A stretch of DNA of 37,722 nt from a virus. The stretch is from the IMG/VR virus record IMGVR_UViG_3300006923_000065, positions 1-37,722 of that record; one strand, given 5' to 3'. Positions 6,961 through 35,433 of the stretch are shown in pieces (the stretch's first letter is position 1; every line of letters starts with the position of its first letter). Position numbers and translations under genes: made by a program. The notes beneath the pieces are model-generated. The model was not told where the DNA came from and made no database searches. It saw only the letters and a program-made list of their open reading frames with translations.

Positions 6961-6971
6961 TATTCTTCCTT

Positions 6972-8570: not shown

Positions 8571-11291
8571 CTAGAAAAGTCCATTAATAAGTTTTTCAAA
8601 TTTCTCTTCGCTTGCCTTCGAGCGGCATTCTTGAATTGATTCATCCACTGATTCGCCCATTCGACCGAACCCCTTGGCTGATTTTTGGTCTCGACGGTCG
8701 CGCTGCCTTTGGCGTCTATCAAGCTTGGAGCCGGAACTGCGTGGCTTAGCCGCCGAAGCCTTAACGGGCTCCCCCTCCTTGCCAGTCTCTGGAGACCAGA
8801 CGGGACCATGTGGCTTAGCCGAAGCTTTCTTGCCAGGCTTCTTACCCTTCTTCACTGTCTTCTTCGTCTTCTTCTTCGCTACCTGAGCAAGTTCGCCTTC
8901 AACAACCTTATACGCTCTTAAAATTTCGATTGCCTCCTTGATGCTGAGACCCTTCATGCCAGTGCCTCCGCCTCCCTTCCTCTTGATGGCGTAGTATGCT
9001 TCTTCTGGAGTTAAAGCCTTGTTGCCTTTGTTCTTAACTGCCGCAATCGCCTTTCTAAGAACACGACTAACGAAGTGATTAAACTTAGCCCCTGTGCCCA
9101 GCTTATCTAGATCACCCTGGATTGATTTGTCGAAGACATAGTAGAAGACTGGTTTTGTTCTGGCACCGCTCCTCAGCTTACGCCGACGACCCGTCTTTTG
9201 AATGGCAATCTTCAGATTATCAGCACGGGTGCCGCGACCAAATTCTCTCTCAAAGCTGTCTGTGTTCTGAAGGCTGCCTGCTTCCTCTTCGTGAAGGTCG
9301 GACGAAAGCTCGAATAACTGCATAAATGCCTCGCTCTCCTGCAATTCACGCCCTATCACTGTGCTGTTTTCCATAGCCTTGAGGGCTTCCTCCGCTTTTT
9401 CCCTATTTCCTTGCTTGTTGAGATACCTCGCGTTAAGCTTGTAATACTTTATATCATCGTCGTCGAAACGAATAAGAACAGGAATCTTAAATTCCGGCAC
9501 GCCGGGTGGTGGCGGGGGCGGGGGTGGCTGAATGCCAGGAGGATCAGTGCCAGGAGGATCAGTGCCAGGAGGATCAGTGCCAGGAGGATCAGTGCCTGGA
9601 TCGCCACCGATAACTGGTTCCCTGTTCCCTTCCCTATCCAAGTAGTCTAAGCTCTGCAATAAATCGTCAAGGACTTGAGCACGAGAAGAGTGTAGACCCT
9701 TCATCCGTAATGCCTTAACACCTACAGCCGCTGCGACCAAGGTAATTCCAAGCGGAGCAAGGTAGGGGGATAACATGGCTCCAACCTTGCCTGCCACTGT
9801 GGTTTTGAGCACAGATTCCCCAGCAGCCCTGATGACTGGCTTGAGGGTTTTCATAATAATTGATTTCCCGAGCATAAGACCAAGTGCGCCGGGACCACCC
9901 GCGCCGGCGATAGAAGTCGGGGCTCCACCGGCAGCAAATTCCTGCATTGCCACGTTCATAGCGACCAAGGAAGGGTTTCCACCCAACATGTTGGTGTCGG
10001 CATGAGCCGATGCATTAGAAATAATAGTTTGTATGCTTCTGCCTGTGAAGTTGGGAGGGTCGACCCCCGGCTCAAGAGCGCCAGCTAATTCCGAAGCCCT
10101 TGCCGCCACCGTATTAAGATCGGCATCAGATAGTTCGCCTGCGTATTGTGCGAAATCGCCCACGCTCGTACCTACCTCGGAAGATGCAAACTCTGCTATA
10201 TCTGTCGGGCTGAGATCGAGAGATTCCATCGGGAACATTTCTCCCAGTGTGTCAGCACCTCCACTAACTGCGCTCTTCCAAGCGTCCAAAAAGGCACCAG
10301 AATCATCAGAAAGTTCCGAAAGCTGTTGCGGGGTTATCCCAGCCTCCTTCATTTCGCCAAACATCTCTGCCGGGTTGGCATCTGATCCAAAATGGCTTAC
10401 ATCACCGTGGAGGACTCGCCCAAGCATCTGTGTAACACCTTCGCCCTCTTGAGGTGTCAATTTACCAACTATCTCTTCTTTGTATTCGATAAAAGAAACA
10501 TCACGGTTTATCACCCGCGTTGTCGCCTCCTTGAACCACTCGGAGTCAACAAGCCACTTGCCTAACAGGGTAGCCGCACCGATAGCCGCTAAAACAGCCG
10601 GAAGGGTGTTGGCTTTCAGACCCCCAATAACTGTAGAGTCTTTATCAGAACCGATGGGTCCTTCGTCTTCCTCCTGTTCTTGCCCATCAGAGTCATCGCC
10701 TCCCTCATCTTCCTTTTCTAGGCGAGCCAACTCCTTTTCCCAGCCTCGGGCTTCTGTGATGATAGACTCTAGGATTAACTCATCCTGATCTCGATCAACT
10801 TCCTTCATAAAGTGTTTATATTTATCCCATAGATCATAATCAAGAAACTTTTTAACAATTATCCTTAACTGTTTAATAAGCTCGTTTGCAACAACGACTT
10901 CCATTTCGTCGCCTTCAACCGCTTTCTTCAGTGACTCATAGAAGTCGCCCATCTCCATGGTCTGTTCGAGAAACTCGTGCTTGTTTTCTTGGTTCGGGTA
11001 GCCAGCCTTTTTAAAGTCGCCCTGTAGCTTTCTGATTAGCCCTGCCGAGTGCTTCGCCGCCACTTTTGCAAGTTTTGTCATTGACTGCATGTATTGTTCT
11101 TGAGCGGCTTCGTCCCTTTTGCCACGACCACGAATCTTGCCACCCTTTTCCCAAGTTCCAATAGTCTTGGCGACGAAATGGTTGAACTTGCTCCAAATCT
11201 CTTCAACCCCTTCTTGCAAGACCATTTCATTAACGGCTGATCTCGTCTCTTCTTCTACGATTTCTCTCAACCGTGCTTTGTTTATAGACAT
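8571..11291 (-). CDS. Large multi-domain head-region protein (906 aa), unknown
   Basis: A 906-aa protein with no family I can name. In order it has an N-terminal targeting-like helix (3-24) ending in L-Q-E-G (25-28), then KFNHFV (35-40), an acidic helical region to about 215, and a hydrophobic stretch (about 226-247, LPAVLAAIGAATLLGKWLV). A long Ala/Gly/Ser-rich region follows, with a second hydrophobic stretch at about 504-528. Next come a GTDPP-repeat and polyproline linker (about 564-595), an alpha/beta domain (about 598-790) that holds a second KFNHFV (about 735-741), and a very Lys/Arg-rich tail. The hydrophobic stretches and basic tail suggest an internal head protein that contacts DNA or membrane, possibly ejected; this is inference. 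The ATG is preceded by a GGGAG ribosome site and a putative late promoter. Confidence 0.75.
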   Translation of the reverse strand: MSINKARLREIVEEETRSAVNEMVLQEGVEEIWSKFNHFVAKTIGTWEKGGKIRGRGKRDEAAQEQYMQSMTKLAKVAAKHSAGLIRKLQGDFKKAGYPNQENKHEFLEQTMEMGDFYESLKKAVEGDEMEVVVANELIKQLRIIVKKFLDYDLWDKYKHFMKEVDRDQDELILESIITEARGWEKELARLEKEDEGGDDSDGQEQEEDEGPIGSDKDSTVIGGLKANTLPAVLAAIGAATLLGKWLVDSEWFKEATTRVINRDVSFIEYKEEIVGKLTPQEGEGVTQMLGRVLHGDVSHFGSDANPAEMFGEMKEAGITPQQLSELSDDSGAFLDAWKSAVSGGADTLGEMFPMESLDLSPTDIAEFASSEVGTSVGDFAQYAGELSDADLNTVAARASELAGALEPGVDPPNFTGRSIQTIISNASAHADTNMLGGNPSLVAMNVAMQEFAAGGAPTSIAGAGGPGALGLMLGKSIIMKTLKPVIRAAGESVLKTTVAGKVGAMLSPYLAPLGITLVAAAVGVKALRMKGLHSSRAQVLDDLLQSLDYLDREGNREPVIGGDPGTDPPGTDPPGTDPPGTDPPGIQPPPPPPPPGVPEFKIPVLIRFDDDDIKYYKLNARYLNKQGNREKAEEALKAMENSTVIGRELQESEAFMQLFELSSDLHEEEAGSLQNTDSFEREFGRGTRADNLKIAIQKTGRRRKLRSGARTKPVFYYVFDKSIQGDLDKLGTGAKFNHFVSRVLRKAIAAVKNKGNKALTPEEAYYAIKRKGGGGTGMKGLSIKEAIEILRAYKVVEGELAQVAKKKTKKTVKKGKKPGKKASAKPHGPVWSPETGKEGEPVKASAAKPRSSGSKLDRRQRQRDRRDQKSAKGFGRMGESVDESIQECRSKASEEKFEKLINGLF
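9541..9600 (-). repeat. Four tandem 15-bp repeats coding for GTDPP linker
   Basis: Four adjacent 15-base units (plus strand ggatcagtgccagga, the last with one change) inside the 906-aa gene. Each encodes five residues of a GTDPP repeat, which runs into a polyproline stretch. The units are almost identical at the DNA level, so they probably expand and contract by slippage or recombination and set the length of a stiff linker between domains. Confidence 0.95.
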
Positions 11292-13304: not shown

Positions 13305-14122
13305 CAGCTATCAAGCTCCTGCACTAGATGCTGTATTTTCAAGAGCGCCTGGATCATACCAGTATCGATTTGCTTTTTCGCATAACCATTAAGCTCCGAA
13401 ATTATTCTTTCGGTGTTTTCTCTCATGACTTTATCTTCTGCAATCTCTTTTGCTTTCAAGCTCTCGTCCAGAGAACCTTTGAGCCTGCCGATCTCTTCAT
13501 TGAGAAATATCTTAAGTTCCAAGCCATTGTTTGAGAAAGAAGAAATATATTTCTGCAACAGACGCCTCTGCTCTTTGAGAAGGGTGTTTGAGTATTTTTC
13601 ATTAAATTTCTGGACAAAAGTTTTATAGGTAAAATTATCAATTGGCTGCATCTTATCTTCCGACTGCTTTTCTTCGGAAACCAAATACTCAATCACCCTA
13701 CCTTCCAGAAGAACTTTTTCTTTCACGGACATGTCAGAATTAAAAAGTTGCGCCAATGTTGCTAGATCCTTATAATTTGGAACAAAATTTGCGAAGATAC
13801 CTTTGGTGTACTCCTGGTTCATATCGCTGATTAGCTCAGATTGCTCCTGAAACACCTCACTATCTAAAATGTATCTCCTTTGTGCCTTAACCTCAAAGAT
13901 CAATTTCTCTGCTAAAATCCTATCGAGCCCTCTCGTATCGACAATAGCCCGATATAGCTGCAACTCTTTGTATAAGGAAGACCCCTTACGAAAGTGCTTA
14001 GAGATTATTTTTCTCGTTACGGCTTGCTTTTTGAGATCGCCATGGACAACTGCCTTTGTCATTTCGTTTATAAGAGTTTCAAACAAAAAAGCTGTATTTC
14101 TTTTTTTATTGTGCTTCATCAT
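13304..14122 (-). CDS. Helical head-region protein (272 aa), unknown
   Basis: A 272-aa, almost wholly alpha-helical, charged protein. It starts MMKHNKKRNTAFLFETLINE and carries long coiled-coil-like helices over the C-terminal half (for example ISSFSNNGLELKIFLNEEIG, then a run rich in Lys and Glu to IISELNGYAKKQIDTGM). I recognise no family. The start overlaps the end of the portal gene by 17 bases and the stop overlaps the next start, so it is coupled on both sides. It sits where T4 encodes the prohead core proteins, so a core or portal-vertex assembly factor is possible; this is inference from position only. Confidence 0.72.
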   Translation of the reverse strand: MMKHNKKRNTAFLFETLINEMTKAVVHGDLKKQAVTRKIISKHFRKGSSLYKELQLYRAIVDTRGLDRILAEKLIFEVKAQRRYILDSEVFQEQSELISDMNQEYTKGIFANFVPNYKDLATLAQLFNSDMSVKEKVLLEGRVIEYLVSEEKQSEDKMQPIDNFTYKTFVQKFNEKYSNTLLKEQRRLLQKYISSFSNNGLELKIFLNEEIGRLKGSLDESLKAKEIAEDKVMRENTERIISELNGYAKKQIDTGMIQALLKIQHLVQELDS

Positions 14123-16097
14123 CGTTTTCCTTTGTTTCTAGCCCTTCGATCAGCTTTTCGATTTCGTGACCAGTTTTCCAAAGCCGTCGCTCTTGTAAAT
14201 CTTGGCTCTTATGATAATTAGAACGCTGATCTTCCATATGCACATTTCTTAGCTGATTCATGCCAGTCGAGCCCTTCCAGCCAGGATAAAAGGTTCTAGG
14301 ACTAATTTCGGGCATTGTTGCCCGTTTATAGTTCTTAGTTCTTCCAGCAGCATCTTTACGTTTATCCCGCTTTGCCGGTGTATACCGCTTACCCTTTGCA
14401 CCAGCGGTCAGATAGGAGCCATCTTCCTCCAAGTCCCTTTTGGCGGGCGGCTCAGCTAGGAGAACGCTATCGTCCTCTTCTTCAGCGGGTGCCTCTTCGC
14501 CACCCAGATCTAGTTCGTCGCCGCCCTCATCCCCGCCGGGTTCACCACCGAGGTCTCCCATAAGGTCTTCGCCAGCCCCATCTCCACCGAGGAGATCGTC
14601 CATGCCACCACCTCCGCCGCCGCCGACGGCAGCCTCTGCTTCGCCTGCTGCCTCGGCTGCTGCATTAAGCTGAGCATCGTATTTACGATCATAAAACATC
14701 TCTCTTTGGTTTCTGAGGAATTCTTCTTCCGACATGTTAAACAGGTGCTCCGCGACCCAGCGGCGACTAAAGAACCCTTCTGTTGCTGAAGCCGCAATAT
14801 CAAATTTCGTCTTCCAGTGCTCAAGTTCTTGAAGTTCGGCAAGTTTCGACGGGTTATTTAAATACAAATTAAAGTTTAAGAGATCGTCTCCGCGAAAGCC
14901 AAGAGTATAGAGATGAATGATTCCTATCTTTTCTAGCTCCGAGATCACCGCTCTTTGCAGTCTCTGAATCGTTCTGGCGAATCGGATGTCTTTTTGTGCG
15001 AGAGTTGTCTTATCCTCGCTTCCCTCCTCGCCCTGTGTTAGATAAGAAGCCGGCACCTTGAGGGCAGAGAACAGTTTATCCCTAAGATACTTAACATCGT
15101 CTATGTCGCTTGTGTTCTGTCCACCCGCAAGACTTTCAACCTTAGAAGAAGTATCGCCACGTACAGGGATAAAATAATCCTCTTCCACACTCATTGGGTT
15201 GTAACGAAGATCAACGCGCCCAGTTGCGGAATTCACCAACTGATTCCTCTTCATAGAAGTCATGACTTTTTGCATATATTGCTCAACGTCGGAAGGAGGG
15301 ATGTTACCAACGTCAACATAAAAAACTCTTCTCTCTGGAGCCCTAACGACGCGGTATGCCATCATGGCGTCCTCCATGAGGATTAGCTGTCTCCATATGC
15401 GACGGGCAGCTTCGAGAATGGAAGTTCCATAGGGGGCATACTTATCATTCCCAAGAATCCTAAAATGACCCACCTGCCAATTTTCAAAAGTCATGGCGGC
15501 TGAATTCCACTGATACTGGATATAACTTGGGTTTGTCTTGTCTTCGCCCTCAAGGCGCTCAACTTCAGGTGACGGTAACCCAATGACAGTTTTGACGCCA
15601 AGGCTCTCATCTATGTCCAGGTACAAGAAAAAATCTCCATACTTACACATCGTCCGGCACCAACCAAAAAGATTATACTCAATATTTAAGATGTTTTGGT
15701 ACAGGGTTGACAACACTGCCTTGATTTCTGCATTGGGGCACTTTATTGATAACATTGGCTGTAAAGAAGAATGCGTCGTCATCTCATCGGCGTAGATATC
15801 TAAAGCAGAAGCGATCTCCGGAGTGTATTCCATTTGATCAAAATCGGTATACCTCTCCGACCTTCTCTGGTTAGCCATTGCCGAGGTGTTGATTTGATCA
15901 AACGGGTTATAGCCGCTTCTCTTGAACTGCTGTCCCGAGGTGCTTTTAAACTTTGTTGAAAAGTAATCTAACTGACTTCGCTTATAGTCCCTCGTCATCT
16001 GCGACCGATAATTTGTAATCGGTCCAGAGAAAAGACGTGTCAGTCTTCTGAATAATGTAGATTCTGAATTTCTTGGATTCTTTGTTTGATCAGCCAT
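14106..16097 (-). CDS. gp20: Portal protein, gp20-like
   Basis: A 663-aa portal vertex protein of the T4 gp20 family; twelve copies form the DNA gate at one head vertex. Clear family segments are EIASALDIYADEMTTHS (about 94-110), MAYRVVRAPERRVFYVDVGN with the following PPSDVEQYMQKVM helix, and NTSDIDDVKYLRDKLFSAL followed by KVPASYL. The gene lies directly after the large terminase, 4 bases away, with an AAAGGAT ribosome site. T4 gp20 is 524 aa. The excess here is a C-terminal extension with a Gly run and a very acidic Gly/Asp/Glu segment (about 472-545), then a basic region ending in a charged helix. That tail is low in complexity and GC-rich compared with the rest of the gene. Confidence 0.95.
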   Translation of the reverse strand: MADQTKNPRNSESTLFRRLTRLFSGPITNYRSQMTRDYKRSQLDYFSTKFKSTSGQQFKRSGYNPFDQINTSAMANQRRSERYTDFDQMEYTPEIASALDIYADEMTTHSSLQPMLSIKCPNAEIKAVLSTLYQNILNIEYNLFGWCRTMCKYGDFFLYLDIDESLGVKTVIGLPSPEVERLEGEDKTNPSYIQYQWNSAAMTFENWQVGHFRILGNDKYAPYGTSILEAARRIWRQLILMEDAMMAYRVVRAPERRVFYVDVGNIPPSDVEQYMQKVMTSMKRNQLVNSATGRVDLRYNPMSVEEDYFIPVRGDTSSKVESLAGGQNTSDIDDVKYLRDKLFSALKVPASYLTQGEEGSEDKTTLAQKDIRFARTIQRLQRAVISELEKIGIIHLYTLGFRGDDLLNFNLYLNNPSKLAELQELEHWKTKFDIAASATEGFFSRRWVAEHLFNMSEEEFLRNQREMFYDRKYDAQLNAAAEAAGEAEAAVGGGGGGGMDDLLGGDGAGEDLMGDLGGEPGGDEGGDELDLGGEEAPAEEEDDSVLLAEPPAKRDLEEDGSYLTAGAKGKRYTPAKRDKRKDAAGRTKNYKRATMPEISPRTFYPGWKGSTGMNQLRNVHMEDQRSNYHKSQDLQERRLWKTGHEIEKLIEGLETKENDDEAQ

Positions 16098-16101
16098 TTA
16101 T

Positions 16102-17685
16102 TTATCCTTTTAAGAGCCATGAATATTCTTGATATTCGGTCATCTGTTCCACCGCCTTTTGAACATAATCTTTGTCGTAACCTTCCTGCCCCGCTATCTG
16201 TGTGCTCATCCTGGTCGTGGACACAAACATTGAATCCAGACAAGCTTTTTTATAATTCATCTTTCGTCGATTAACTGTCAGGGCTGTGTCCCTAACCCAG
16301 CACCCAATCGCCAAGGACATGACCAAATCATCGTGATAGCTTCGCATTGCTTGTGGCTTCCCATTGTTCCAGATAAAAGTTGTAAATTCGTTATGCAGGC
16401 GACTAGAATACAAAGTAATTAGTTTGTTTCTAACGAATTCTTCCAACTTAGCCACAATTAATGGTCGTGTCTTGGAAGAGGTGGTGAAGCCGGCAATAAC
16501 ATTTTTTGATGCCTCGGCAACCTCAGAATCAATAAACTCGTGTGTGCCCTTAGCCGAGTAATAGAGGTTAGGATACTCAAGATCAATCAACTTCTCTAAA
16601 ACAGAGATTCCAATACCAACGTTCTCAACTATCAATAAAGCATCACCATACTCGCTGCCAACTTGCTTAAGTATGTTCGAGTACATATCTAGGCTTGGTT
16701 TGCCCTGATATTCAGCTACCACCTCCATGGTCTCAAGCTTGAAAACGTGAAAAACAGAATAGTCTGCTCCGTCTCCTCTCGCGACATCTGCGACCACCAT
16801 ATAACTATTGTCCTGTTGGTGTTCTTCCCAGATCCAATAATTTCTGTCATAACCTGTTCGATACTTTGGCTCTCTCACAGTCTGCTTGAGACGGTCAAGA
16901 TCATCAGGATGGATCACGGTTTCGCCAGACGTATTGAAGTTGCACTCCAATTCCTGTGCAATCTGGCGGCGAGACATATTCTTGGTCTCTTTAACAAACC
17001 ACTCTTGATCGCGCTCAGGGTGGACCTCCCAGGGTAAACAAACTGGCTTAAAATCATTCTCTTCTAATTCGGCATCAACATATGTCTTGTGGAACCAATT
17101 GCCAACGCCATTCGGTGTCGAAAGAGAAATACAGCGACCACCAGTTGACAAGGTAGGATACAAGCCAGTCCACAGTTCAGTCAATCCTTCAACATGTGCA
17201 GCTTCGTCTATCACTAAAAGAGACAGTGCCTCCGAGCGACCCGCGTCTCCCGATGTAGAGGTCGCCTTAATCTCAGAACCATTAGACAACTCGAAGCTAG
17301 TTCTATTGTCGATTGTAATATCGGCGATACGAAGCCAAGGAGGTAAGGTACGCATAATTGCCTTGACTTTCTTAACAAGGTTAGCAGCAGTGCTAAACTT
17401 GGTTGCCATAACCATGATGTTCTTATCTCGATGGAACAACATGAGCCATACAACATATGCTCCCACGATTGTCGAAATACCAAGCTGGCGCGCTTTTAAA
17501 ATAACCACGAAACGGTGGTCGTTAAAATCCCTCAGTAGGTCGTCCTGATAATCAAATGTCCTGAATGGGACGGAACCTCTGAGGGGGTGGGAGATTTTAC
17601 AGTAGTTGTTAATAAAATAAGCCGGGTCTTTGCCCGACCTAACCACTTCCTTGACAATCTCTTTTTTGGACAGCTCGTGTACCAT
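16102..17685 (-). CDS. gp17: Terminase large subunit, gp17-like
   Basis: A 527-aa packaging motor of the T4 gp17 family. The N-terminal ATPase has an adenine-binding region, a Walker A variant KARQLGIST (64-72), Walker B LLVIDE (156-161) with the catalytic Glu, and a coupling motif SLSTPNG (187-193). The C-terminal RNase-H-like nuclease has VVADVARGDGADYS with Asp299 or Asp300, ENVGIG (354-359), and SYHDDLVMSLAIG with Asp452 and Asp453. It cuts concatemeric DNA and pumps it through the portal. Its length is slightly below T4 gp17 (610 aa). Its ATG overlaps the upstream stop by one base (TAATG), coupling it to the 179-aa gene, and the portal gene follows directly. Confidence 0.96.
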   Translation of the reverse strand: MVHELSKKEIVKEVVRSGKDPAYFINNYCKISHPLRGSVPFRTFDYQDDLLRDFNDHRFVVILKARQLGISTIVGAYVVWLMLFHRDKNIMVMATKFSTAANLVKKVKAIMRTLPPWLRIADITIDNRTSFELSNGSEIKATSTSGDAGRSEALSLLVIDEAAHVEGLTELWTGLYPTLSTGGRCISLSTPNGVGNWFHKTYVDAELEENDFKPVCLPWEVHPERDQEWFVKETKNMSRRQIAQELECNFNTSGETVIHPDDLDRLKQTVREPKYRTGYDRNYWIWEEHQQDNSYMVVADVARGDGADYSVFHVFKLETMEVVAEYQGKPSLDMYSNILKQVGSEYGDALLIVENVGIGISVLEKLIDLEYPNLYYSAKGTHEFIDSEVAEASKNVIAGFTTSSKTRPLIVAKLEEFVRNKLITLYSSRLHNEFTTFIWNNGKPQAMRSYHDDLVMSLAIGCWVRDTALTVNRRKMNYKKACLDSMFVSTTRMSTQIAGQEGYDKDYVQKAVEQMTEYQEYSWLLKG

Positions 17686-19656: not shown

Positions 19657-22600
19657 TTACTGGCTCACAAAAGCATAGCCATCGACTTTATCAATTGTAA
19701 TCTGAGTGTCAACACAATCTTTTAAAGATTCAAGGTGAGTGATGAGAAGGACCGTCTTGAAGTACGATTTGACAACCTCCAAAATTCGAACAAACCCCTC
19801 CATGTTCTCCGCGTCCAAAGCAGTTCCCGGCTCATCAAGAATAAATATGTCTCCCTTGGGAAGGCTGGAAACAGAAAGAAGAGCCAGACGGATTGCCATA
19901 GCAGCTATCGTTTTCTCTGCCCCCGATCCCATCTCTAAAGGTCGAGGGTCGTGGCTCGGGTGTTTTATAAAGATGTTCAGCCTTTTCCCGTCATCTTCGA
20001 AAAAGATTTCAAAATCAACTATGTTGGCAAGGACTTTTGCGACCTCTTCGTTGATCGCCGGAAGTCTTTTCTTGATAACATCGTAAGCAATTCCATTGTT
20101 ATGCATACACCGCATAAATAAATCATAAGCTGAATATTCCTGTCTTAAGCCCTCAAGTTCATCCTGTAGGCTAACTAGTGTGTTTAACTTTTCTTCATAA
20201 GAGCCGTGAATCTTGTATAGACTCATTATTTCTTCTTGGCACTGGTCAAAGCTTTTCTTGGCTTTGACCAGATCTTTTTCTGTTCTTTTTCTGTCGAGCA
20301 AGAAAGACTCTAGATTATCCAGTGCCTCTTTGTTTTCTTGATACTGCTCTTTTTTGTCTATTAGGTCTTGTATTTCTCTGTCGAGATTTTCAGTATTATT
20401 TTTATTCTTCTCGATAAATAGTTTCAACTTTGCTATACGACCAGACAACTCAGAAGACCTTTCCAAGAGTTGATTATACTTCTTGATGTATTCTTCGACT
20501 TCTTTGGGGTTTAGGTCTTCAATCTTTTTTACAATTTCAGAAACACTCTCCTGCTTCGATAACTTGTTCAGAAGCGCCTTGTTCGCATCACATATGAACT
20601 TACAATTTCGATAAGTATTCCCACACGGGATACCCTCAAGAAGTTCTTCTTTCTTTTCTATATTTCGTAATTCTCTTTGGAGCAACTTCGATTCTTGCCG
20701 CAAAGACGAAATCGTCTCCTTCTTATCTCTGATGTCTTCAATATTAAAGTTGTCGATGAATCTTTCAATTTTTCCATGAAGTTCATTTTTGAGAAGAAAT
20801 TCTTTCTCATACTCTGCCATCAAAGTCTGAAGTGATTGAACTTTGTTTCTCTTCTCTTCGATAAGACTTAGAACCTCGGCAATATCAATAACCTCCAGGG
20901 GGATAGAATCAATTTTCTGGTTTAGGATGGAAAGCTTGTCAGATACATCTGAGATGTCCGCCTTAAAGCCTTCACAGCTTTCTTGTTGCTCTTTAAGCTG
21001 TTTTTCACTATCATCGAAAAAATCTTGTGCTTCTTTGATCTCTTCATCAAAGTCGCGCCCCTCAAGCCGCTTCACGGCTCCTCGCAGATCTGCTGCATCA
21101 CTCTTGGCAAGCCTAAACTTCTTTTCAAAAACTTCAAGGTCCAAGAATTTAGCAAAGATCTCCTTGCGCTTGGTAGACCCCTCTTTCAAGAACGACAAAG
21201 CATCAAGCTGCGATGACATGGATGAAATCAAGAAGTCTTCAAGCGAGCCAAACACTTTTCGAACATTCTTGTCTGTCTCGTTTCTCGTCATCCCGTTGAG
21301 GCTTGTCGTTTCTCGTGTGACCTTATCATAGCATGAAAAGTTAATGTTAGTTTTTGCCTCGATGGTTTCGTTACCCTGGAGTTTTTTAACATACTTTTCC
21401 GAACTTCTGGAGATGGTATACTCTTTATTACCTACAGAAATCTGAACTGTGCCGGAACCTTCCTCTTTGTTTTGGTTAATAATATTGAGGTTCTTCCTCT
21501 CGTTCTTAGAAGTGGAATTCCAAACGGTGTATAGAATACTATCAATTACCGAAGATTTCCCAGAGTAATTCTTTCCAAAGATCCCAACAATGCCGTTGAG
21601 CTTAGAAAAGTCAATACGGTTATCATCGCCATAGTTGAAGAGGCTACTCCAAGTGGCGTTCCTAAGATTCCAATTAATGTTTCTGGCAACCTCTTCTTTC
21701 TCTTCGGCAACCTTGTTGTATCTAAGGTTGAGTTCATACACTTTCCCCATCACCTTGTCCGGCACCTCATAGTCTTTTAAGTATTCAGATATCAGCCTTT
21801 CCTGAACTGTGATGTCTCGTAAGTTTTCCTGTTTAATGTTTTGGGCAAGGTCGCCGATATCTCCCCTTTGACCAGCAGCGCGATTCAAAAAAGTAATAGC
21901 CTCTGGCTTGAAGCGGTGCTTGGCAATTTCGATAGCCCTCCTCATCTTAATCAACGACAAGCTATTATTAGATACGATACGCAAACGAGCACCAGCAGGA
22001 GCCGAAGCTTTCTTTGGAATTTTGCCAGCCTTGGTCAATTCAATAGTTACAAAAGGCTTGGGGTTCAATAGCTCATGGTGTTTGCAAGCAAAATCGTCTT
22101 TACTGTTAATCTCCCAAATCAAAAATCCCTTATCGTTGGTCTCCCCGTGGTTCTGCTGAACTGTTGAGCCGGGGTACCTTACCCTTCCTTCTGTATCGAC
22201 AATCTGGTTTGTCTTATGGATATCGCCTAGAAACGCAAAATCATGATTTTTAAAAATCTCTGGTGTGTGGTCTCCATATTCCATAACCCAGCCAGAGTCT
22301 GTCTCGACGCCAGCGATGGAACCATGATACAAGGCAATATTTATCTTCTCGTTGTCAGAAGGGCTAACCCAGTTGTCCTCATCAAAGACAGAAAGCACGT
22401 TAAAACAGAAACCGTTCCCCAAGCCAACCTCACCAGAGTTCTTTATCAAGTGCAAGCTGGGGAGATTTAGTGCCTCCACAATTGGTGTTAGGGCGTCTTG
22501 TCGGCTACTGTTCCTTAGATTACCATCGTGATTCCCAAGAATGATGTACGTCGGAGCAATCGCCCCTAAATTGCGAAAGAAGTCAGAACACAACTCAACA

Positions 22601-22767
22601 AATTCTGGTGAAATCTGTGTCTTGGTGTGAGCGATATCGCCGCAGTGGACAATGTAGTCTACCTTCTCTTCTTTTAAGATCTCATATAATCTTTCAAAAA
22701 CTACACGATATTCTTTTTGATATTTCAAATTACGGATATGGGTGTCCGCTATATGCGCGAATTTCAA
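19657..22767 (-). CDS. sbcDC (gp47-gp46): Single-chain Mre11/SbcD nuclease and Rad50/SbcC ATPase fusion
   Basis: A protein of about 1036 aa that joins two subunits usually made separately (T4 gp47 and gp46; SbcD and SbcC). The N-terminal phosphodiesterase has all metal motifs: IADTH (8-12), HCGDIAH (43-49), LGNHDG (79-84), YHGS (149-152) and GDIHKTN (183-189), numbered from the GTG two codons upstream. At about 397-408 GIFGKNYSGKSS is the Rad50 Walker A. Two coiled-coil arms flank a Cys-rich apex near 715-726, and the C-terminal lobe carries the signature EMGSGAEKT (about 945) and Walker B IFILDEPGTALD (about 974). It processes DNA ends for recombination-dependent replication or host DNA breakdown. 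I choose TTG at 22767: it gives the usual MKFAHIADTH start 5 bases after AGAGAGG, while the GTG would touch the ribosome site. Confidence 0.93.
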   Translation of the reverse strand: MKFAHIADTHIRNLKYQKEYRVVFERLYEILKEEKVDYIVHCGDIAHTKTQISPEFVELCSDFFRNLGAIAPTYIILGNHDGNLRNSSRQDALTPIVEALNLPSLHLIKNSGEVGLGNGFCFNVLSVFDEDNWVSPSDNEKINIALYHGSIAGVETDSGWVMEYGDHTPEIFKNHDFAFLGDIHKTNQIVDTEGRVRYPGSTVQQNHGETNDKGFLIWEINSKDDFACKHHELLNPKPFVTIELTKAGKIPKKASAPAGARLRIVSNNSLSLIKMRRAIEIAKHRFKPEAITFLNRAAGQRGDIGDLAQNIKQENLRDITVQERLISEYLKDYEVPDKVMGKVYELNLRYNKVAEEKEEVARNINWNLRNATWSSLFNYGDDNRIDFSKLNGIVGIFGKNYSGKSSVIDSILYTVWNSTSKNERKNLNIINQNKEEGSGTVQISVGNKEYTISRSSEKYVKKLQGNETIEAKTNINFSCYDKVTRETTSLNGMTRNETDKNVRKVFGSLEDFLISSMSSQLDALSFLKEGSTKRKEIFAKFLDLEVFEKKFRLAKSDAADLRGAVKRLEGRDFDEEIKEAQDFFDDSEKQLKEQQESCEGFKADISDVSDKLSILNQKIDSIPLEVIDIAEVLSLIEEKRNKVQSLQTLMAEYEKEFLLKNELHGKIERFIDNFNIEDIRDKKETISSLRQESKLLQRELRNIEKKEELLEGIPCGNTYRNCKFICDANKALLNKLSKQESVSEIVKKIEDLNPKEVEEYIKKYNQLLERSSELSGRIAKLKLFIEKNKNNTENLDREIQDLIDKKEQYQENKEALDNLESFLLDRKRTEKDLVKAKKSFDQCQEEIMSLYKIHGSYEEKLNTLVSLQDELEGLRQEYSAYDLFMRCMHNNGIAYDVIKKRLPAINEEVAKVLANIVDFEIFFEDDGKRLNIFIKHPSHDPRPLEMGSGAEKTIAAMAIRLALLSVSSLPKGDIFILDEPGTALDAENMEGFVRILEVVKSYFKTVLLITHLESLKDCVDTQITIDKVDGYAFVSQ

Positions 22768-22792
22768 GCACACCTCTCTTAATGTTCTGTTA

Positions 22793-22830: not shown

Positions 22831-23763
22831 CTAGATGGACGCCAACCTCTCCAACAAGTGGCTATCCGAATTCATGTAGATCGCCTCGCTTTTTCTTTCT
22901 AAAAACTTACCAAACGACATTTCTGCTATATCTTCATACCCAGAAGTATCAATCTTGGACACGTCAACACCATAGGACATAAGGTTCCAGATAATCTTGT
23001 CTGCCTTGGCACCGGCATCCTCATCGAGGGCTAAGAAGATTTTAGCATCACTGTTTACAATAGCCCTGAAGAGTTTTCCTCCTTCCCGGATAGTTGATCC
23101 AAGAATTGGGATGCCATTGCCAGCCTTGATCGCATCAAAGATGCCCTCTACAATTACTATATCTTCGTCCCAATCGACGAACAATTCATTAAAGACGATA
23201 TCTTTACTTGCAGGAGGATTCTTATACTTTTTCCAATCGTCTACAATAGTACGAGCTACATAATAATTTACATGCCCTTCTTCGTTGAACGAAGGAATGA
23301 TTACTCGATTCCTGTAATCTCCCTCTGTGCAATATCCAATCTTCCATTTTACTATTTGTTCTCGCCCAACGCCACGGCGGGCGAGATATCGAAGAAAGGG
23401 CTTAGCCGACATTGGCAAACCTTTGTTGGCGAGCGAACGGAACTCGGCAGGCAATCTCAAGATCGCCTCTGGTTCTTTCTCAGCCTTCCCGCCGAAGAGG
23501 TCGTCAAACTCGCCAAGGTCGACCTTTCCAACAAGCTCTTGCCATTCGCGAAAATGGGTAAGCGAACCAAAGTACCGGATCACACGACCAACATTCCTTC
23601 CCCGCTTATCACAGACCCAGCACTTGTAATAGTTTTTCTCGATGTTTACCGAAAATTTACGCTTGTGATGGCGACAATACGGGCAACTGAACAAAAGCTC
23701 GTCACCTCGGTCGTAGGGAGACCCAAGAACATTTCTTAGGATTCTAACTTTTTCACTTCGCAT
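22831..23763 (-). CDS. DNA primase, zinc ribbon plus TOPRIM
   Basis: A 310-aa primase of the DnaG/gp61 class, which makes RNA primers for lagging-strand synthesis. A zinc ribbon occupies the N terminus: CPYC (27-30) and CWVC (48-51) around KRKFSVNIEKNYYK. A linker follows, then RVIIPSFNEEGHVNYYVAR of the catalytic core (about 153-171), and the TOPRIM motifs IVIVEGIFDA with Glu206 and LALDEDAG with Asp247 and Asp249. It has no helicase domain and is shorter than DnaG (581 aa), close to T4 gp61 (342 aa). The ATG lies inside the 3' end of the resolvase gene (28-base overlap) behind a G-rich site, so the two are co-transcribed. No separate helicase is in the window. Confidence 0.92.
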   Translation of the reverse strand: MRSEKVRILRNVLGSPYDRGDELLFSCPYCRHHKRKFSVNIEKNYYKCWVCDKRGRNVGRVIRYFGSLTHFREWQELVGKVDLGEFDDLFGGKAEKEPEAILRLPAEFRSLANKGLPMSAKPFLRYLARRGVGREQIVKWKIGYCTEGDYRNRVIIPSFNEEGHVNYYVARTIVDDWKKYKNPPASKDIVFNELFVDWDEDIVIVEGIFDAIKAGNGIPILGSTIREGGKLFRAIVNSDAKIFLALDEDAGAKADKIIWNLMSYGVDVSKIDTSGYEDIAEMSFGKFLERKSEAIYMNSDSHLLERLASI

Positions 23764-24269
23764 ATAGCCCCCGCTCTTGCTACAACAATGGAGTCAGCCA
23801 TGTCGTATGACGCTGGCTTTGGATTTCCGTAACGAGTGTATTCTATCACGAAACCCGGCTCGTTGTCAAGTAAAAATTTCAACACAACTGGCTTGGCTTT
23901 TTCTCCTCTAGGGATTTTAATCCCACAGATCCTTCGAGCACTTGTCGCTGCGATGTATTCTGGCTTAATCTGAAATAGATCGTAAACAAGCCAAGACACA
24001 ATCCCATTAAAGCGAGACAGGCTTGAAAGAGTCTTTGCAGATGAAAAACCTGAACGGAACGTCTGTAGTGACTGTTCAACATAAACGTGCTGTATTTGTC
24101 CATCATATTTTCTGTGTATTTCTGTAACACCTTTTCTCACTGCCTCCGCTTTCTCAAAGAAATCTTTGTATTTCCTAGTATCCCAAGCCCCATATTCAAC
24201 AACCTCTCCTTGAAGCTTGATAACGGTATAGCCTGTGATACTGGTGGATATGTCCAAGCCAAGAATCAT
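23736..24269 (-). CDS. ruvC: RuvC-type Holliday junction resolvase
   Basis: A 177-aa protein with a RuvC/RNase-H fold. MILGLDISTSITGYTVIKL gives the first strand with Asp6 and the T-G-Y turn. HVYVEQSLQTF has Glu65, and SYDMADSIVVARAG has Asp156 and Asp159, so the four acidic residues match the D-E-D-D set of E. coli RuvC (Asp7, Glu66, Asp138, Asp141). It would cut branched DNA before packaging or during recombination, and so complements the Mre11-Rad50 protein two genes on. T4 uses the unrelated endonuclease VII (gp49) for this. The ATG lies 6 bases after the -10 box of a strong sigma-70-type promoter and has no ribosome site, so the mRNA is probably leaderless. A later start would remove the catalytic Asp6. 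Confidence 0.9.
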   Translation of the reverse strand: MILGLDISTSITGYTVIKLQGEVVEYGAWDTRKYKDFFEKAEAVRKGVTEIHRKYDGQIQHVYVEQSLQTFRSGFSSAKTLSSLSRFNGIVSWLVYDLFQIKPEYIAATSARRICGIKIPRGEKAKPVVLKFLLDNEPGFVIEYTRYGNPKPASYDMADSIVVARAGAICEVKKLES

Positions 24270-27664: not shown

Positions 27665-30484
27665 TCACAGTAATCGAAGTATATCGCCACCCTGTTCCTC
27701 CAGGGGATCCTGCGGGGGATCCTGCGGGGGAGATGGTGCTTTTCGCAATTCTTCTTCTTCCGCTGTTACTTCGTGCCTTCTCTTGTAAGTAACGTTTAAA
27801 TCTATTTTTCTACCCGTTGACTTGGAAATAAAACGTATTTTAAACTTTTTACCCCAAATACTCTCTTCCTCGACACCAAGAGCATAAGATCTAGTGTCCA
27901 AAGCAGAGCCTGCGTCCTGAAGACCTGACTTAGCTTTGTTGAACAGCCCCTGTGTTATTCTGGGCACCACCTGCACATACCGACCTAATTCTTTAACAGG
28001 GTCGTAAGGTTCAAAAATCTCTTCCAAAGCTATGATGTTTGTGATCATATAAACCGCACCATCATTGTCTACCAACTCTATTTCAAAAACTTTGGTAGGG
28101 TTGGACTTTTTGCCATGAACATCCGACGTTCTAAAGGTGTAATAATACTTTTGGTTAGGAAGAACGGTGTCGACCATGGATACGGCTGAGGCTCTCTTCG
28201 AGGATTCTGGCTCGATTAACGTTGTCAGGGAAGCGCGCTGATTATTGGCAAAATCAGAATATCTCTCTGGCTTCTCGGAGAGTCTCAGAACCTCAAAAGA
28301 GTCGGCGTTGTCATCAGAACGATATGTAATTTTGTCTGTTGGGCTTAAAAACTTATTCCTTCTCAAATCCCAAATGTGCTTTCTATCTGATTTATAAATT
28401 GGAATTGGATACAATTCCTGCTCGCCCACGGTAGAATTCAGCATTAACAAAATCTTGTTGTTTTCTCCACGGTAAGGAACAATGCTGACATCGGGGGGCA
28501 ATGGCGGGGAATCTACCATGACCCCCGTATGTGTGAAAAAGGGCACTTCTACCAATCTAACACAAGGATAGCTCATCGTTTGAACACAAGCTGTGTATTG
28601 ACTCTCTTCAGTTGGTACCTGTATAGAGGGCACCGTTATTTCATCGATCTCGCCAATAGCGTAGTTATTAATTGCCCGAAGCACCAATCTTGAAAAACTT
28701 GCTGATTCAAAACCGTACTTAGAGGCTATCGTTGTCATTATAATTTCAAAATAATTAAAATCTTTCAATGAAGGGAGCGTACCGGAAAAAACATAAATAG
28801 CGACAAGATCTGTAGCCACGTTGTTCATGATGGTGGTATCTGTGCCAAGGGTAGTGAACATGTCTGCAACCATAGAAGCATCAGCGGCGGCAGAAAGCAC
28901 ATCGCCACTAAGAGGAGGATATTCTATATCAGGGCACGTTTCGAGAGGTGTTCGCTCTGCACCGCATGACATGTCCCAAGTTCCGTACATATACTCGGAC
29001 CCGATAACTAACTGATAAGCATATATCTTGTAAGTGTACCGGCTATTATATTTTACCTGCGTATCTACCAGATCAATCACGTCGATGTTATTTGAATTCG
29101 GGAACCAGTAATTCTGAATTGGCTGATTGTTTTCTGAACTTCCCTTGTATTTCGCAATTCGATAAATAATAGTTTCTGTGTGGCACTCGCCGCCCTCAAT
29201 TATTTGCTCAATAGAACGTGTCTTATCTTTGATTATGTTTTGTAACTTGCCAGAGAATACCAACAAGCTCAGAGCCTGAGAGAGGTTGTTTTTCTGTACG
29301 CCCGAACTTATATACACAGAGCGTGTGTCGGGACCAACAAACGTTTGGTTTGCATAGACCGAAGGTACAGAGCCCGAGGCGTACCTTTTCCACCAAGTCA
29401 TGAGGTCAAGGTACTTATACCTACCAACATGAGCCTCCATACTTCCGTGCCTGCTGGGGAAGTAGGAAAGATTCTCCTTAGACACATAATAATTCTCAAC
29501 ACCACCGCCCAACAAGTTTAAGAGAGATGTGTCCATCGACCCACACCCGGCTGCGACGTGCCTTTGTAAGGAAGTAGATAAATCAGCATCCTCTAATATT
29601 TGAGCTATCTCCGTCACACTATCTGTTGAAAACTTGACTTCCACAAACATGGGGAAGGATTCCTTCAGGGTGGTATCAGAAACAAGGCTTAAATTCTCAA
29701 ACGGAACGATAAGGTTTTGAAACCTTATATAGAAACCTCTCATAAGCCGTGCTTTAGCTTCTTTGTATGCTTTCGACAGAAGATTAAAATATATCCACTC
29801 CGTCCCAAGTAGTGGATTGATGATATTTGCTTCTCTCCAGCTATCCCTTCTTATTCGTGCCTTTTGCCCCTCAATGCGACCTTGTAGAGTTTTCAAGTGA
29901 TACATATTTCTTGATATATCGTCTGAAATGAAGGCGTACAGATTTGGCAATAATTCTTCTCTTATTGAGATGATAGATTGTTCATAAATTTCGTTGTTGT
30001 AGTTGTATTTAAAATCCACATCCACAAATCCTAAACCCGAAATATCTCCTATCTTCTTCCTCTCGCCCTGGTCAAATGGAGTATCAATTCTAAAAGAATA
30101 ATCCTTCAGCAGCCCCTTGTCGGGGGTCATCTCGGTGAGCATGTCGTACCAGTCCTGAGTGGTGCCATGCACATCGCCATCAGCGCCCCAGAAAGCCTCG
30201 TCGCCTACAAAATATATTTTCTGCTGCTTGGAGATAAAAGGGGGATTACGGAGAAGGCGAGTTACCGTTTTCCCATAAGAAATATTTAAATGATTGTCAG
30301 CTAAAAATCTTTCGTACTTTTGATCATCACCATATTCTGACTCTGCCCCAACCCACGCGATCCAATGTTTGCCTATACTTCTTCTAAAGGTATCCTTGAC
30401 CCTATCAGGGATATCAAGTAGCTCGTCATAAGGGGTTCCGACTATTTCGCTTAAAACATACGTGTTCTTCTTTCCTGATTGCAT
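27665..30484 (-). CDS. Large virion protein with fibronectin-III-like domains (939 aa)
   Basis: A 939-aa structural protein. The open frame extends upstream, but I place the start at the ATG at 30484: GGAGGG lies 10 bases before it and the upstream gene's TAA is 1 base away. A longer start would overlap that gene by up to 140 bases. The N-terminal half is helical and charged, with no family I know. Around residues 435-500 and again about 655-805 are segments with the fibronectin type III look: a charged start, then KYNSRYTYKIYAYQL, and later PNQKYYYTFRTSDVHGKKS before VFEIEL. The C terminus is Pro/Gln-rich with a repeated PPQD. Likely a tail, baseplate or adhesin-linked protein. Confidence 0.75.
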   Translation of the reverse strand: MQSGKKNTYVLSEIVGTPYDELLDIPDRVKDTFRRSIGKHWIAWVGAESEYGDDQKYERFLADNHLNISYGKTVTRLLRNPPFISKQQKIYFVGDEAFWGADGDVHGTTQDWYDMLTEMTPDKGLLKDYSFRIDTPFDQGERKKIGDISGLGFVDVDFKYNYNNEIYEQSIISIREELLPNLYAFISDDISRNMYHLKTLQGRIEGQKARIRRDSWREANIINPLLGTEWIYFNLLSKAYKEAKARLMRGFYIRFQNLIVPFENLSLVSDTTLKESFPMFVEVKFSTDSVTEIAQILEDADLSTSLQRHVAAGCGSMDTSLLNLLGGGVENYYVSKENLSYFPSRHGSMEAHVGRYKYLDLMTWWKRYASGSVPSVYANQTFVGPDTRSVYISSGVQKNNLSQALSLLVFSGKLQNIIKDKTRSIEQIIEGGECHTETIIYRIAKYKGSSENNQPIQNYWFPNSNNIDVIDLVDTQVKYNSRYTYKIYAYQLVIGSEYMYGTWDMSCGAERTPLETCPDIEYPPLSGDVLSAAADASMVADMFTTLGTDTTIMNNVATDLVAIYVFSGTLPSLKDFNYFEIIMTTIASKYGFESASFSRLVLRAINNYAIGEIDEITVPSIQVPTEESQYTACVQTMSYPCVRLVEVPFFTHTGVMVDSPPLPPDVSIVPYRGENNKILLMLNSTVGEQELYPIPIYKSDRKHIWDLRRNKFLSPTDKITYRSDDNADSFEVLRLSEKPERYSDFANNQRASLTTLIEPESSKRASAVSMVDTVLPNQKYYYTFRTSDVHGKKSNPTKVFEIELVDNDGAVYMITNIIALEEIFEPYDPVKELGRYVQVVPRITQGLFNKAKSGLQDAGSALDTRSYALGVEEESIWGKKFKIRFISKSTGRKIDLNVTYKRRHEVTAEEEELRKAPSPPQDPPQDPLEEQGGDILRLL
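27704..27727 (-). repeat. Two 12-bp tandem repeats coding for PPQD
   Basis: Two adjacent identical 12-base units (plus strand gggatcctgcgg) near the 3' end of the 939-aa gene, encoding a repeated PPQD in the disordered C-terminal tail. A shorter parallel to the GTDPP repeat in the 906-aa head protein. Confidence 0.85.
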
Positions 30485-30485
30485 C

Positions 30486-33400
30486 TTAGTTTTTCCCTCC
30501 GGTGCCCGTGCCACTGTCGCCATCCTTTGATTTCGCCTGTGAATCGTCACCGCCAGGTGGCGGTGTCCCTTCTCCCTCTGGCGGCTTGCCAGGAATATCA
30601 TAAACCATATCAACATATTGCTCAAGTAAGAGATTTCTTTTCTGTGGATCTTCTATCTTTGGCTCGCTAGGCGCATCTTTCTGTGTTGGACCACTTGCTT
30701 TCATCCTATCTTGAAACTTCTTCACAATTCTATCATGATCTTTCTCAGCCTGAAGACCATAGTCGGGTGGTGCGGCAGGAGGAGGGATTGTTGCAAGAGC
30801 ACCGGGGCTTGGCTTGTCGGGTGATACAAAAATAAAACTATCATCTTGCCCAGGTGCTCCTCCAGCAAACAGTGTAGCGCCAGGACCCTTGATAGACGGG
30901 TCAATATATTCCTGTTCATCAGCCGGACCTTGTTCCCGCTGCGAGGCGTCTTGCTGCGGCAGTCGAAACTGCTCGGGTGGACGTGGTATTGCTGCTGTGC
31001 AGCAGCCTCCCGCCTCATCTAATAACAAATCTATGCTATTGGAAATTATTAGTTGATCTGGAATGTTTTTGTTCGGAGCGAGAACATCTCCAGAACCATT
31101 TTTCGGCTTCTTCTGTTTCAAAACAGTCTTTAATACATTTCTCGGCACATTAAGCTGTGATGCTCCTAGCAGGATGCCTACATTTAAAAGCATCTTATAA
31201 GCGCTTGCCCTCTTCTTCCTCCGAGGCTGCCGCTTCTTTATTCTGCCTGCTATCGTGCTGTTTGAAGCAATGTGAAAATATGCATTATAATATGGCATCT
31301 TTGAAAAACTAGAATGACCAATTTTATACACTCCGTCAGTATACTCTGCCATTCTGCACAACATAATGCTATTCTCTTTCTTAAGAGCCTCCAGGGCTAC
31401 ATACGTCAACGGCTTCCAAACGGGGGAAGAAAGCTGGGAGCCCTCGGAAGAACCTCCTCGGGCAAACCCACTCAAGTATTCAACTTTAGAAATAATCTGA
31501 TAGTTCCATATAAACATCATAGCAGTTTTAAAAGATTTTGCTACATCATTCCGACGGTCGAACCAGTTTGTTTTAGAAATTTCCGAATCCTGCGAAAAGA
31601 AAAGAGATTTGATTTGATTTGGTATTTGTCTTATCCTTTCCAAATCTGTGCTCTGAGTTCCAGAATCAATATATCTCCCGTAGATACCACAAGAATCTCC
31701 CGCAATACTGAAACATTCAATAGATATCTGACTGTTTGCGCCCGCGCCTTCTTCGTATCCGTGGGTTAGGGCTGCATCCATGCCAAAAATTGCAGCAAGG
31801 TTTTGTATACCCTGGCTCTCTGGCGGGACAGTTGGCGCGTTGCTATAATCAATTTCGGCTTGCGCGAAAGGGCTCTCCTCCCCTAGTTTTGGTCTCAAGT
31901 CATCCAAACCAAGGGATTCGGCTCCACGGACATCCCACGACGGCAGTGAGACGCCTTGGAGCCCCAAGAAGTTCCTGTTAGCTAATTCGCTTTGCCCTGG
32001 TCGTATCTCTGATTCAGACCCCTGCATCGCTATGAGAGCCGAGGTGCCAAACCTCGTGTAGCTGCTAATGTTCGACTCCATTTCAGCACCCGGCAGGGAC
32101 CTCAAAGAATCAGACCCCGCATAAGCGACTGAAGGGGATAGGTAGGTCGCGCCGTATGTTAACACATCCCCAAACTCTGCAACAGGAACGGCACCGGCAC
32201 CAGTGCCCAAAGGAGCCATTTTTGGTGAGTCATTAACGAAGTATTTGCCGTTTTCCTGCTCTAGCCTTGCCATATAATCGCCAACTGTTATTGTAAACGG
32301 ACCAGAATAATCATTTCTATTTGCAAGATCTAAAAAGTTTATTCCATATTTGTGGGGCGTCTCGGCGTTATAAAGACTAGAAAAAACTTGCCTGTCAGTT
32401 AAGATAAACTTTTCAAAAGAGGAAGTTTTCCCAGACTTCTCAGAAACATCAACAGAAACACCCTTCTTGTCCCCCAACAAATTCGCCAAAATATCTTCCA
32501 CTTTCGACATCAAAGACAAAACTGCGGATACGCCTGCTGGCGTGCCAGATGTGGCATTTGATAAGCCATATAATTTCCGGCACATTGTTTGTGTCTTCAC
32601 AGCGCTAGTACCGCTCAAGAGACCTAGCAAAAAACAAAATCTTGCGGGGGCTTCAACCCACGGGTACTTGCCGGGATTAACGGAACTGTTTCTGCTGCGC
32701 TGTGTGATGTCGTAGTGCCTTTGCAGCCCGTCCGTAAAAGACTTGCTTTTGTGGTCATAATAGTCCGAAGTAGAACAAATATTGTTATACGATTCAAAGT
32801 TTTTTACGGACTTTGTAAACTCCAAAAATTGTGATTTAAGATAATCTATCGAGCCATCTTGTATTTTTAATTCTGCTGTGTACTGATATAAACCGCCTGT
32901 CTGCTCCCCGACCTCGGCATCCGTAACCATAAAAGTTCTTAAATTAGATGCATTTTTAAGCTGTACCTCTCTAATCGATCCGATGGCGCTTTTCTTGCTC
33001 TGTAGAATGCCTCGCACATCAGAGGATTTGATAACAAGAACAGGGGCTTTTTGGCTTCCGGTATAAGAATTCTCTTTAAAGATCGCACCTCGAACTGGGG
33101 ATCCCAATCTGTTGTAGGATACAGAGTCCTCTGCTCTGTTCCGATAAATCTTAAGAGATAAAATATTCGAGCGTTGCAATATTTCTTGCATGACCTGGGC
33201 GTCTTTAAGGGATTCGAACAACTTCCCAAATTCACTGTTTTGCTTAAAAAATTCCCTATAATCGAAGGAGAACGTGAAGCTGCACCTTCTTTTGGAATCA
33301 ACCAAATCACTGCTCATAAACGCTTCTGTAAGATATGCCATCTTATCTTCTAGTTTTATTTCAGTTGCGCTCGTCTTTTGTCCGAGCCTTTTTATTGCCG

Positions 33401-34304: not shown

Positions 34305-34305
34305 T

Positions 34306-35394
34306 TTAATCCACCCCCAAAGGACTATCTGCTTCGCATTTGGTCCGTTCAGACCCATCCTCTGCATAAAGGTCGGCTGTCGAAGAATAAGAAGGGATAT
34401 CTGGACAAACAAACTCTGTCTCTATGAGCACCCCTTTCGACTTCATCTCCTGAATCGACCTACAAATCACCGCGTCGTCTATCCCGCTGTCTGTGAAAAT
34501 ATCAAAGAAATATTCTACATAACTTGGGTCAAGCTCAATATCCTTTTTTTCCACATCGACCAACAGACCGTCTACAATTGAACGCGCTTTTTTCTTAAAT
34601 TTCATGGGCAAGAACTCATCTCTTGACTCGCCATTCGGTAAAACCTCTGTCTTGATTTCATAAACTTCAATATCAAAATTTTCTCTTTCATACGGAGCGT
34701 TTTTCTCTTGTAGATCCAGAAGAATATAATCCGCGTCGACAGCAACGAAGGTACCGTCTGAAAAGATTCCTTCTCTCAAAACCGGCTCTGACTCGACTGG
34801 CTGATAGATACCGCCAGGAACCAAGAAGCCGTCTTCATCGTAAACCGGGGGTGCCCCTGGTAGTTGCGGTGGCTTGTTCTCTGTGCTTTTGATTTTTGTT
34901 TTGTAAGTGATGGAAGCCTCTATCTGTGGTATGTTGCGAGAAGCGTGGCTCCCCGTATAAGTTGTTGACCAATTTAGCATCTCATTGTAATAAAATTGCA
35001 CATTCCATGCCGGTGCTTTTTTAGCATTTAAATCAGAATTGCCAAGCGGCGAGTGAAGGGCAGTAAAATGCTTGTCAACTGTTGAAGGAAACCTGACCTT
35101 CTGGTCCTCCCTAAGATGGAAAGCGTCATTTATAAACTTGTTGTAGGTCATAATTTGCTCGCCGCGACCCTCAAAAGAATGCTGCGTTCTCAGAGACGGA
35201 GTTTCGTCTTGAATTCTAGATTCGTTATCGTTTTGCGAACTAGAATATGCAGCATATCTTGTATCGTAGATGACTCCATTGTCAAAGAACGAATAATAAA
35301 CCGGTTTGAATTTACCCAAAGAAAGTAAATACTCGCCATACTTGGTAAGCTCAACGTCTATTACGTCCTGCTTTTGATCAAAAAAAGTTGCCAT
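34306..35394 (-). CDS. Virion structural protein (362 aa) with shared N-terminal module
   Basis: A 362-aa protein starting MATFFDQKQDVIDVELTKYG, then EYLLSLGKFKPVYYSFFDNG and VIYDTRYA. The opening matches the 311-aa protein in pattern: D-[VI]-I, L-T-x-x-G, L-x-x-G-x-F-K, and F-x-D-x-x-V-x-Y. I recall such N termini from uncharacterised virion proteins of marine T4-like phages. A long linker with Pro-rich parts (PPQLPGAPPVYDEDGF) and a C-terminal alpha/beta part (DPSYVEYFFDIFTDSGIDDA) follow. No clear ribosome site precedes the ATG (ATTAATATAATG), and the gap to the previous gene is 39 bases. Likely a tail or baseplate component. Confidence 0.75.
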   Translation of the reverse strand: MATFFDQKQDVIDVELTKYGEYLLSLGKFKPVYYSFFDNGVIYDTRYAAYSSSQNDNESRIQDETPSLRTQHSFEGRGEQIMTYNKFINDAFHLREDQKVRFPSTVDKHFTALHSPLGNSDLNAKKAPAWNVQFYYNEMLNWSTTYTGSHASRNIPQIEASITYKTKIKSTENKPPQLPGAPPVYDEDGFLVPGGIYQPVESEPVLREGIFSDGTFVAVDADYILLDLQEKNAPYERENFDIEVYEIKTEVLPNGESRDEFLPMKFKKKARSIVDGLLVDVEKKDIELDPSYVEYFFDIFTDSGIDDAVICRSIQEMKSKGVLIETEFVCPDIPSYSSTADLYAEDGSERTKCEADSPLGVD

Positions 35395-35433
35395 TATATT
35401 AATTAGGATCCTGCAATGTTTTTAGTATCTGTT

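Follow-up and report, generated by a model that had tools for sequence, protein, structure and literature searches.

The Locus and Its Genomic Setting

The window, i.e., the whole stretch of DNA analysed, is a linear IMG/VR fragment of 37,722 bases in which every gene matched to a known family lies on the minus strand. These genes encode a head–tail adaptor, a capsid protein (phrog_138), a head maturation protease, a T4-like portal protein, a terminase, a fused Mre11–Rad50 protein, a primase, and a RuvC-like resolvase. The features considered first are the following:

14106..16097, minus strand: T4-like portal protein (Pfam Portal_T4, 6e-79)
16102..17685, minus strand: terminase large subunit, downstream neighbour (PHROG 2, 5e-51; 84 loci)
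19657..22767, minus strand: fused Mre11/SbcD–Rad50/SbcC gene, 1036 aa, TTG start (Pfam and PHROG matches)
22773..22779, minus strand: Shine–Dalgarno-like AGAGAGG upstream of TTG 22767
22831..23763, minus strand: DnaG-like primase, upstream neighbour (PHROG 47, 2.7e-40; neighbour in 116 loci)
23736..24269, minus strand: RuvC-like Holliday junction resolvase, neighbour (PHROG 827/159; 102 loci)

The fused gene occupies exactly the interval 19657–22767 given in an earlier note on this DNA, which left the strand unstated; it is the minus strand. The frame read from 22767 to 19657 is open over 1036 codons plus a stop, with no internal stop codon, and the plus-strand frame over the same interval is full of stops. 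Thus, the claim of one unbroken frame of about 1036 codons carrying both domains is borne out by the open frame and by the Pfam and PHROG matches. The AGAGAGG motif (22779–22773) ends five bases before TTG 22767, and close relatives of the gene likewise have a TTG start and a similar GAGAGG or GAGG. TTG 22767 is the better start, since the alternative GTG 22773 lies inside the motif.

The order resolvase, primase, and fusion recurs across loci, usually with the terminase and portal genes downstream, and is partly kept in the Microcystis phage Mel-JY01. A RecA-family gene is present in 7/7 large relatives tested and in Mel-JY01; this recombinase is seen only in the relatives, as the window spans only a 37.7 kb fragment. 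Elsewhere in the window, the minus-strand ORFs at positions 27665–37722, three in number and very large (986, 1308, and 762+ aa), match nothing in PHROG or Pfam and are probably virion or tail proteins, and positions 8571–11291, within the head gene cluster, hold a 906-aa ORF that is likewise unmatched in both.

Domain Architecture and Predicted Structure

The protein carries an SbcD/Mre11-type phosphoesterase N-terminal to an SbcC/Rad50-type ABC ATPase in a single chain. Pfam places Metallophos at residues 1–184 (6e-14) and AAA_23 at residues 379–612 (5e-8), the PHROG SbcD and SbcC profiles cover residues 2–377 (6e-30) and 209–1031 (1e-51), respectively, and sequence matches in the PDB are to Mre11 for the N-terminal part and to Rad50 for the C-terminal part. 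The AlphaFold model of the fused protein has a mean pLDDT of 81.5 and a pTM of 0.48, the latter too low to fix how the Mre11 and Rad50 halves sit against each other. Taken separately, model residues 1–296 align with the nuclease and capping domain of Staphylococcus aureus SbcD (7dog, VIA-align Z 24.9) and residues 366–1036 with Escherichia coli SbcC (7yzo_D, VIA-align Z 30.9), and a fold search of BFVD ranks giant-virus proteins of fused length first. The parts are, from the N-terminus:

22072..22767, minus strand: Mre11-type phosphoesterase (nuclease) domain, residues 1–232 (Pfam Metallophos; VIA-align to 7dog)
21880..22071, minus strand: capping domain, approximately residues 233–296 (AlphaFold model; 7dog alignment over 1–296)
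21700..21813, minus strand: helices 319–333 and 337–356, at the position of the Mre11 helix-loop-helix (model secondary structure)
21676..21699, minus strand: linker of about 8 residues, 357–364 (in the model, the last Mre11 helix ends at 356 and the first Rad50 strand begins at 365)
21136..21675, minus strand: Rad50 N-terminal ATPase lobe, residues 365–544 (Pfam AAA_23; 7yzo_D alignment)
20635..21135, minus strand: outgoing coiled-coil arm, residues 545–711 (model helices)
20029..20601, minus strand: returning coiled-coil arm, residues 723–913 (model helices)

From their order in the chain and from the published description of viral fusions (Yoshida, Claverie and Ogata 2011, PMC3175470), helices 319–333 and 337–356 could be the equivalent of the helix-loop-helix through which Mre11 binds Rad50. 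The linker had been placed at about residues 330–395, a span which does contain it; however, in the model, this span is made up of helix, the linker of about 8 residues, and the first Rad50 strands.

Conserved Motifs and Departures from the Canonical Forms

An alignment of 30 relatives and a set of about 107 distinct family members both show conservation of the catalytic motifs of the nuclease and the ATPase, whereas the apex of the coiled coil is variable. The motifs are located as follows, invariance referring to the 30 aligned relatives:

22738..22746, minus strand: nuclease motif I, D8-T-H10 (D8 and H10 invariant)
22627..22641, minus strand: nuclease motif II, G43-D44-I-A-H47 (G43, D44, and H47 invariant)
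22525..22536, minus strand: nuclease motif III, GNHD 78–81 (invariant; 107/107 distinct members)
22321..22326, minus strand: nuclease motif IV, H148-G149 (invariant)
22216..22227, minus strand: nuclease motif V, G181-D182-I-H184, GDxH for GHxH (GDIH in 106/106 family members)
21553..21576, minus strand: Walker A, GKNYSGKS 398–405 (G398 and G403–S405 invariant)
20602..20625, minus strand: apex C715-x6-C722, zinc-hook position with non-canonical spacing (alignments of relatives)
19912..19929, minus strand: ABC signature, GSGAEK 947–952 (S948–K952 invariant)
19831..19848, minus strand: Walker B, ending in LDE, 974–979 (D978–E979 invariant)

H184, Q520 of the Q-loop, and H1011 of the H-loop are also invariant in the same relatives. 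Thus, all five nuclease motifs, Walker A, the signature, and Walker B are present, as the earlier note had recognized, but motif V reads GDxH instead of GHxH and the apex does not conform to CxxC. D182 stands where GHxH has its first His (H206 of Pyrococcus furiosus Mre11), a substitution at one of the seven metal ligands expected. The same Asp is found in every fused viral protein read, i.e., the 106 family members, Mel-JY01, LR756508, LR756501, and the Tenacibaculum phage pT24, in contrast to the 12/12 separate Mre11 homologues read, which have GHxH; given that the fused proteins are relatives of one another, the switch amounts to a single change and not to many. With regard to the apex, the window protein has C-x6-C and lacks the canonical CxxC zinc hook, and 106 distinct family members are distributed among C-x6/7-C (94), CxxC (6), and CKC (6).

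Owing to the Asp at a metal ligand in motif V, nuclease activity of the window protein is not to be taken for granted. The nuclease half could be degenerate or changed in specificity, leaving a protein that acts mainly as a DNA-end tether and ATPase. In agreement with such a change, GDxH is constant in the family and recurs in the remaining viral fusions read as well as, according to PMC3175470, in Mimivirus R555. However, all of the other metal ligands are invariant over a large divergence, which suggests selection for catalysis. Moreover, Asp is itself able to bind metal, and the reading as mainly a tether and ATPase seems unlikely. The Asp-for-His switch and the varied apex offer testable points on how metal sites and zinc hooks change, and they hold the remaining interest of this protein.

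The Fused State across Relatives

Searching phage genomes for the same domain order, as the earlier note had proposed, recovers fused relatives in abundance. A scan of IMG/VR proteins gave 56 loci, most of them full length, and a profile scan gave at least 552 encoding stretches among the first 600 pattern matches listed; identity within an aligned sample of fused relatives ranges from 43 to 76%. Both domains lie in one open frame in 127/127 long relatives from IMG/VR and MAG contigs, a count that covers the long open frames that could be read, the shorter pieces being contig ends or part of a chimeric MAG. Moreover, besides the fused gene, no strong Mre11 match occurs in five large relatives (172–204 kb) and no strong Rad50 match in seven (159–204 kb).

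These data bear on whether two adjacent genes were joined by an error of sequencing or assembly, an idea favoured by the separate neighbouring sbcD and sbcC genes that are the rule in T4, E. coli, and other phages. The earlier note had named such an error, or relatives with two genes, as grounds for rejecting the fusion. Neither is found: the 127 long relatives, on independent contigs, are all fused with no stop in the linker, and so is the isolated phage Mel-JY01 with its 190 kb genome. An error would have to recur in the contig of every relative, and this explanation can be considered refuted. A second possibility is that the single gene yields two products, an internal start near the linker providing a free Rad50-like protein as well. 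The window does contain in-frame GTG and ATG codons, located 26 to 18 codons ahead of ARNINW, and a weak GAGG lies upstream of one of them. However, a start preceded by a Shine–Dalgarno-like motif occurs within about 85 codons in only 36/106 relatives, the commonest single position is shared by 7/106, and no start from which a free Rad50 could be made is conserved in the linker region of these 106 relatives, which makes a second product very improbable.

Matches in bacterial genomes comprise two phage-like MAG contigs, for one of which phage neighbour genes were seen, a chimeric MAG, and a weak match in Methanobrevibacter. In CP070664.1, the 'chromosome' of a WOR-3 MAG, positions 6876–6976 of the stretch taken from it carry a phage fusion gene that breaks off at a run of N after its 5′ part, which suggests that this assembly is chimeric or contaminated. 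Candidate plasmid relatives were discarded, as three Burkholderia records match only 8–9% of the query and the two that were read have separate sbcD and sbcC genes with GHxH. Rfam gave no matches on the window or on the locus of LR756508.1, a 484 kb uncultured phage, and no intron at the split found in the latter. There, a 305-aa ORF (positions 3665–4582 of the stretch taken from that genome) splits the fused gene just after motif V (GDIHKRQ), and its Cys-rich and endonuclease-like features give it the appearance of a homing element.

Proposed Function

The most probable reading, to which a probability of about 85% can be assigned, is that the window protein is a single-chain SbcCD/Mre11–Rad50 nuclease of a marine tailed phage with a T4-type portal, performing ATP-gated end processing for recombination-dependent replication. 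The assignment of this role, which is likely, follows the analogy with T4 gp46/gp47, whose roles are taken from PMC3175470 and the T4 record. By analogy with the two protein families, two fused chains would dimerize by way of both the ATPase heads and the nuclease domains, giving the usual M2R2 core, in which ATP binding would close the heads over the nuclease site, and ATP hydrolysis together with DNA-end binding would let the nuclease trim or nick DNA ends. The resulting 3′ single strand could then feed a phage recombinase of the RecA/UvsX type, sustaining recombination-dependent replication and repair, and the protein might also aid host DNA degradation, as T4 gp46/gp47 do. No biochemical study of any viral Mre11–Rad50 fusion was found in the literature searched.

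Ordinary Mre11–Rad50 is already a 1:1 complex (M2R2). For this reason, and because the predicted order is one that has been argued to mimic the ordinary complex (PMC3175470), the proposal that fusion alters the assembly of the head complex lacks support. Encoded by one gene and about 1040 residues long, a fused Mre11–Rad50 packs a universal DNA-repair machine into a compact format, which could suit structural work.

Known Fusions and Evolution of the Viral Proteins

The notion that the fusion is remarkable cannot be upheld, since such fusions have been known since 2011 and are common in ocean viruses. Besides Mel-JY01 and phage pT24, huge phages have them too. Mre11/Rad50 fusions have been described in Mimivirus R555, bacteria, plasmids, eukaryotes, and a Bacillus phage, with the Bacillus phage 0305phi8-36 and a Clostridium kluyveri plasmid among those named, and the cellular ones are not monophyletic (PMC3175470). 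In the same study, R555-like sequences were found to be abundant in marine viral fractions and to share scaffolds with phage primases and endonucleases, many of them were proposed to be phage-borne, the fusion itself was confirmed in a few long metagenomic sequences only, and the fused order was argued to suit the geometry of the ordinary complex (PMC3175470). This expectation of phage-borne fusions (PMC3175470) is closely matched by the window protein and its relatives. Thus, the fusion is already published, as is the finding that such genes abound in marine viruses, and what is added here is the clade of viral fusions, the GDxH in every fused protein read, and the mostly C-x6-C apex.

Mimivirus R555 resembles the window protein in having an Mre11-like followed by a Rad50-like part in one chain, a GDxxH motif II, and, in motif V, Asp where P. 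furiosus Mre11 has H206 (PMC3175470), and its marine homologues also lie beside phage primases and endonucleases. R555-type traits found in the window protein are the capping and helix-loop-helix region, the short interdomain linker predicted by the model, and D182. However, R555 has 1351 aa, a longer coiled coil, and a giant virus of amoebae as its source, compared with 1036 aa and a tailed phage for the window protein. The Mel-JY01 protein (WWT39521.1, 'AAA domain containing protein') is fused over its full length, 30% identical, carries GDIH, and shares some neighbours including the primase, but it is distant in sequence and has a CxxC-type hook (CKHC). In turn, T4 gp47/gp46 and E. coli SbcD/SbcC have the same two folds and motif set and, presumably, the same reaction, but they differ in their GHxH motif V, CxxC hook, and two separate genes, a contrast that the earlier note had drawn correctly.

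In trees of Mre11 and of Rad50, the fused proteins make up one side of a branch, with SH-aLRT values of 94, which is below the threshold of the tool, and 100, respectively. Both trees are small and long-branched, comprising 12 fused and 9 separate homologues and leaving out R555 and the cellular fusions; within this sampling, the trees suggest that the viral fusions included group together as a single clade, apart from the separately encoded pairs. More tentatively, and with more doubt than credence, the fusions of tailed phages and giant viruses might all descend from one ancient event marked by a switch from GHxH to GDxH tied to the fused state, in which case metal use or ATP gating would differ from that of the two-gene relatives.

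At the distant end of the comparison, the 1311-aa protein of phage pT24 has Mre11 followed by Rad50 in one chain and a GDIH motif V, but only the first approximately 410 profile positions were matched, and neither the phrog_100 nor the phrog_77 profile detects it. A 1009-aa protein of fused length is also listed for Listeria phage LMTA-57 in BFVD, the entry from which it is known here.
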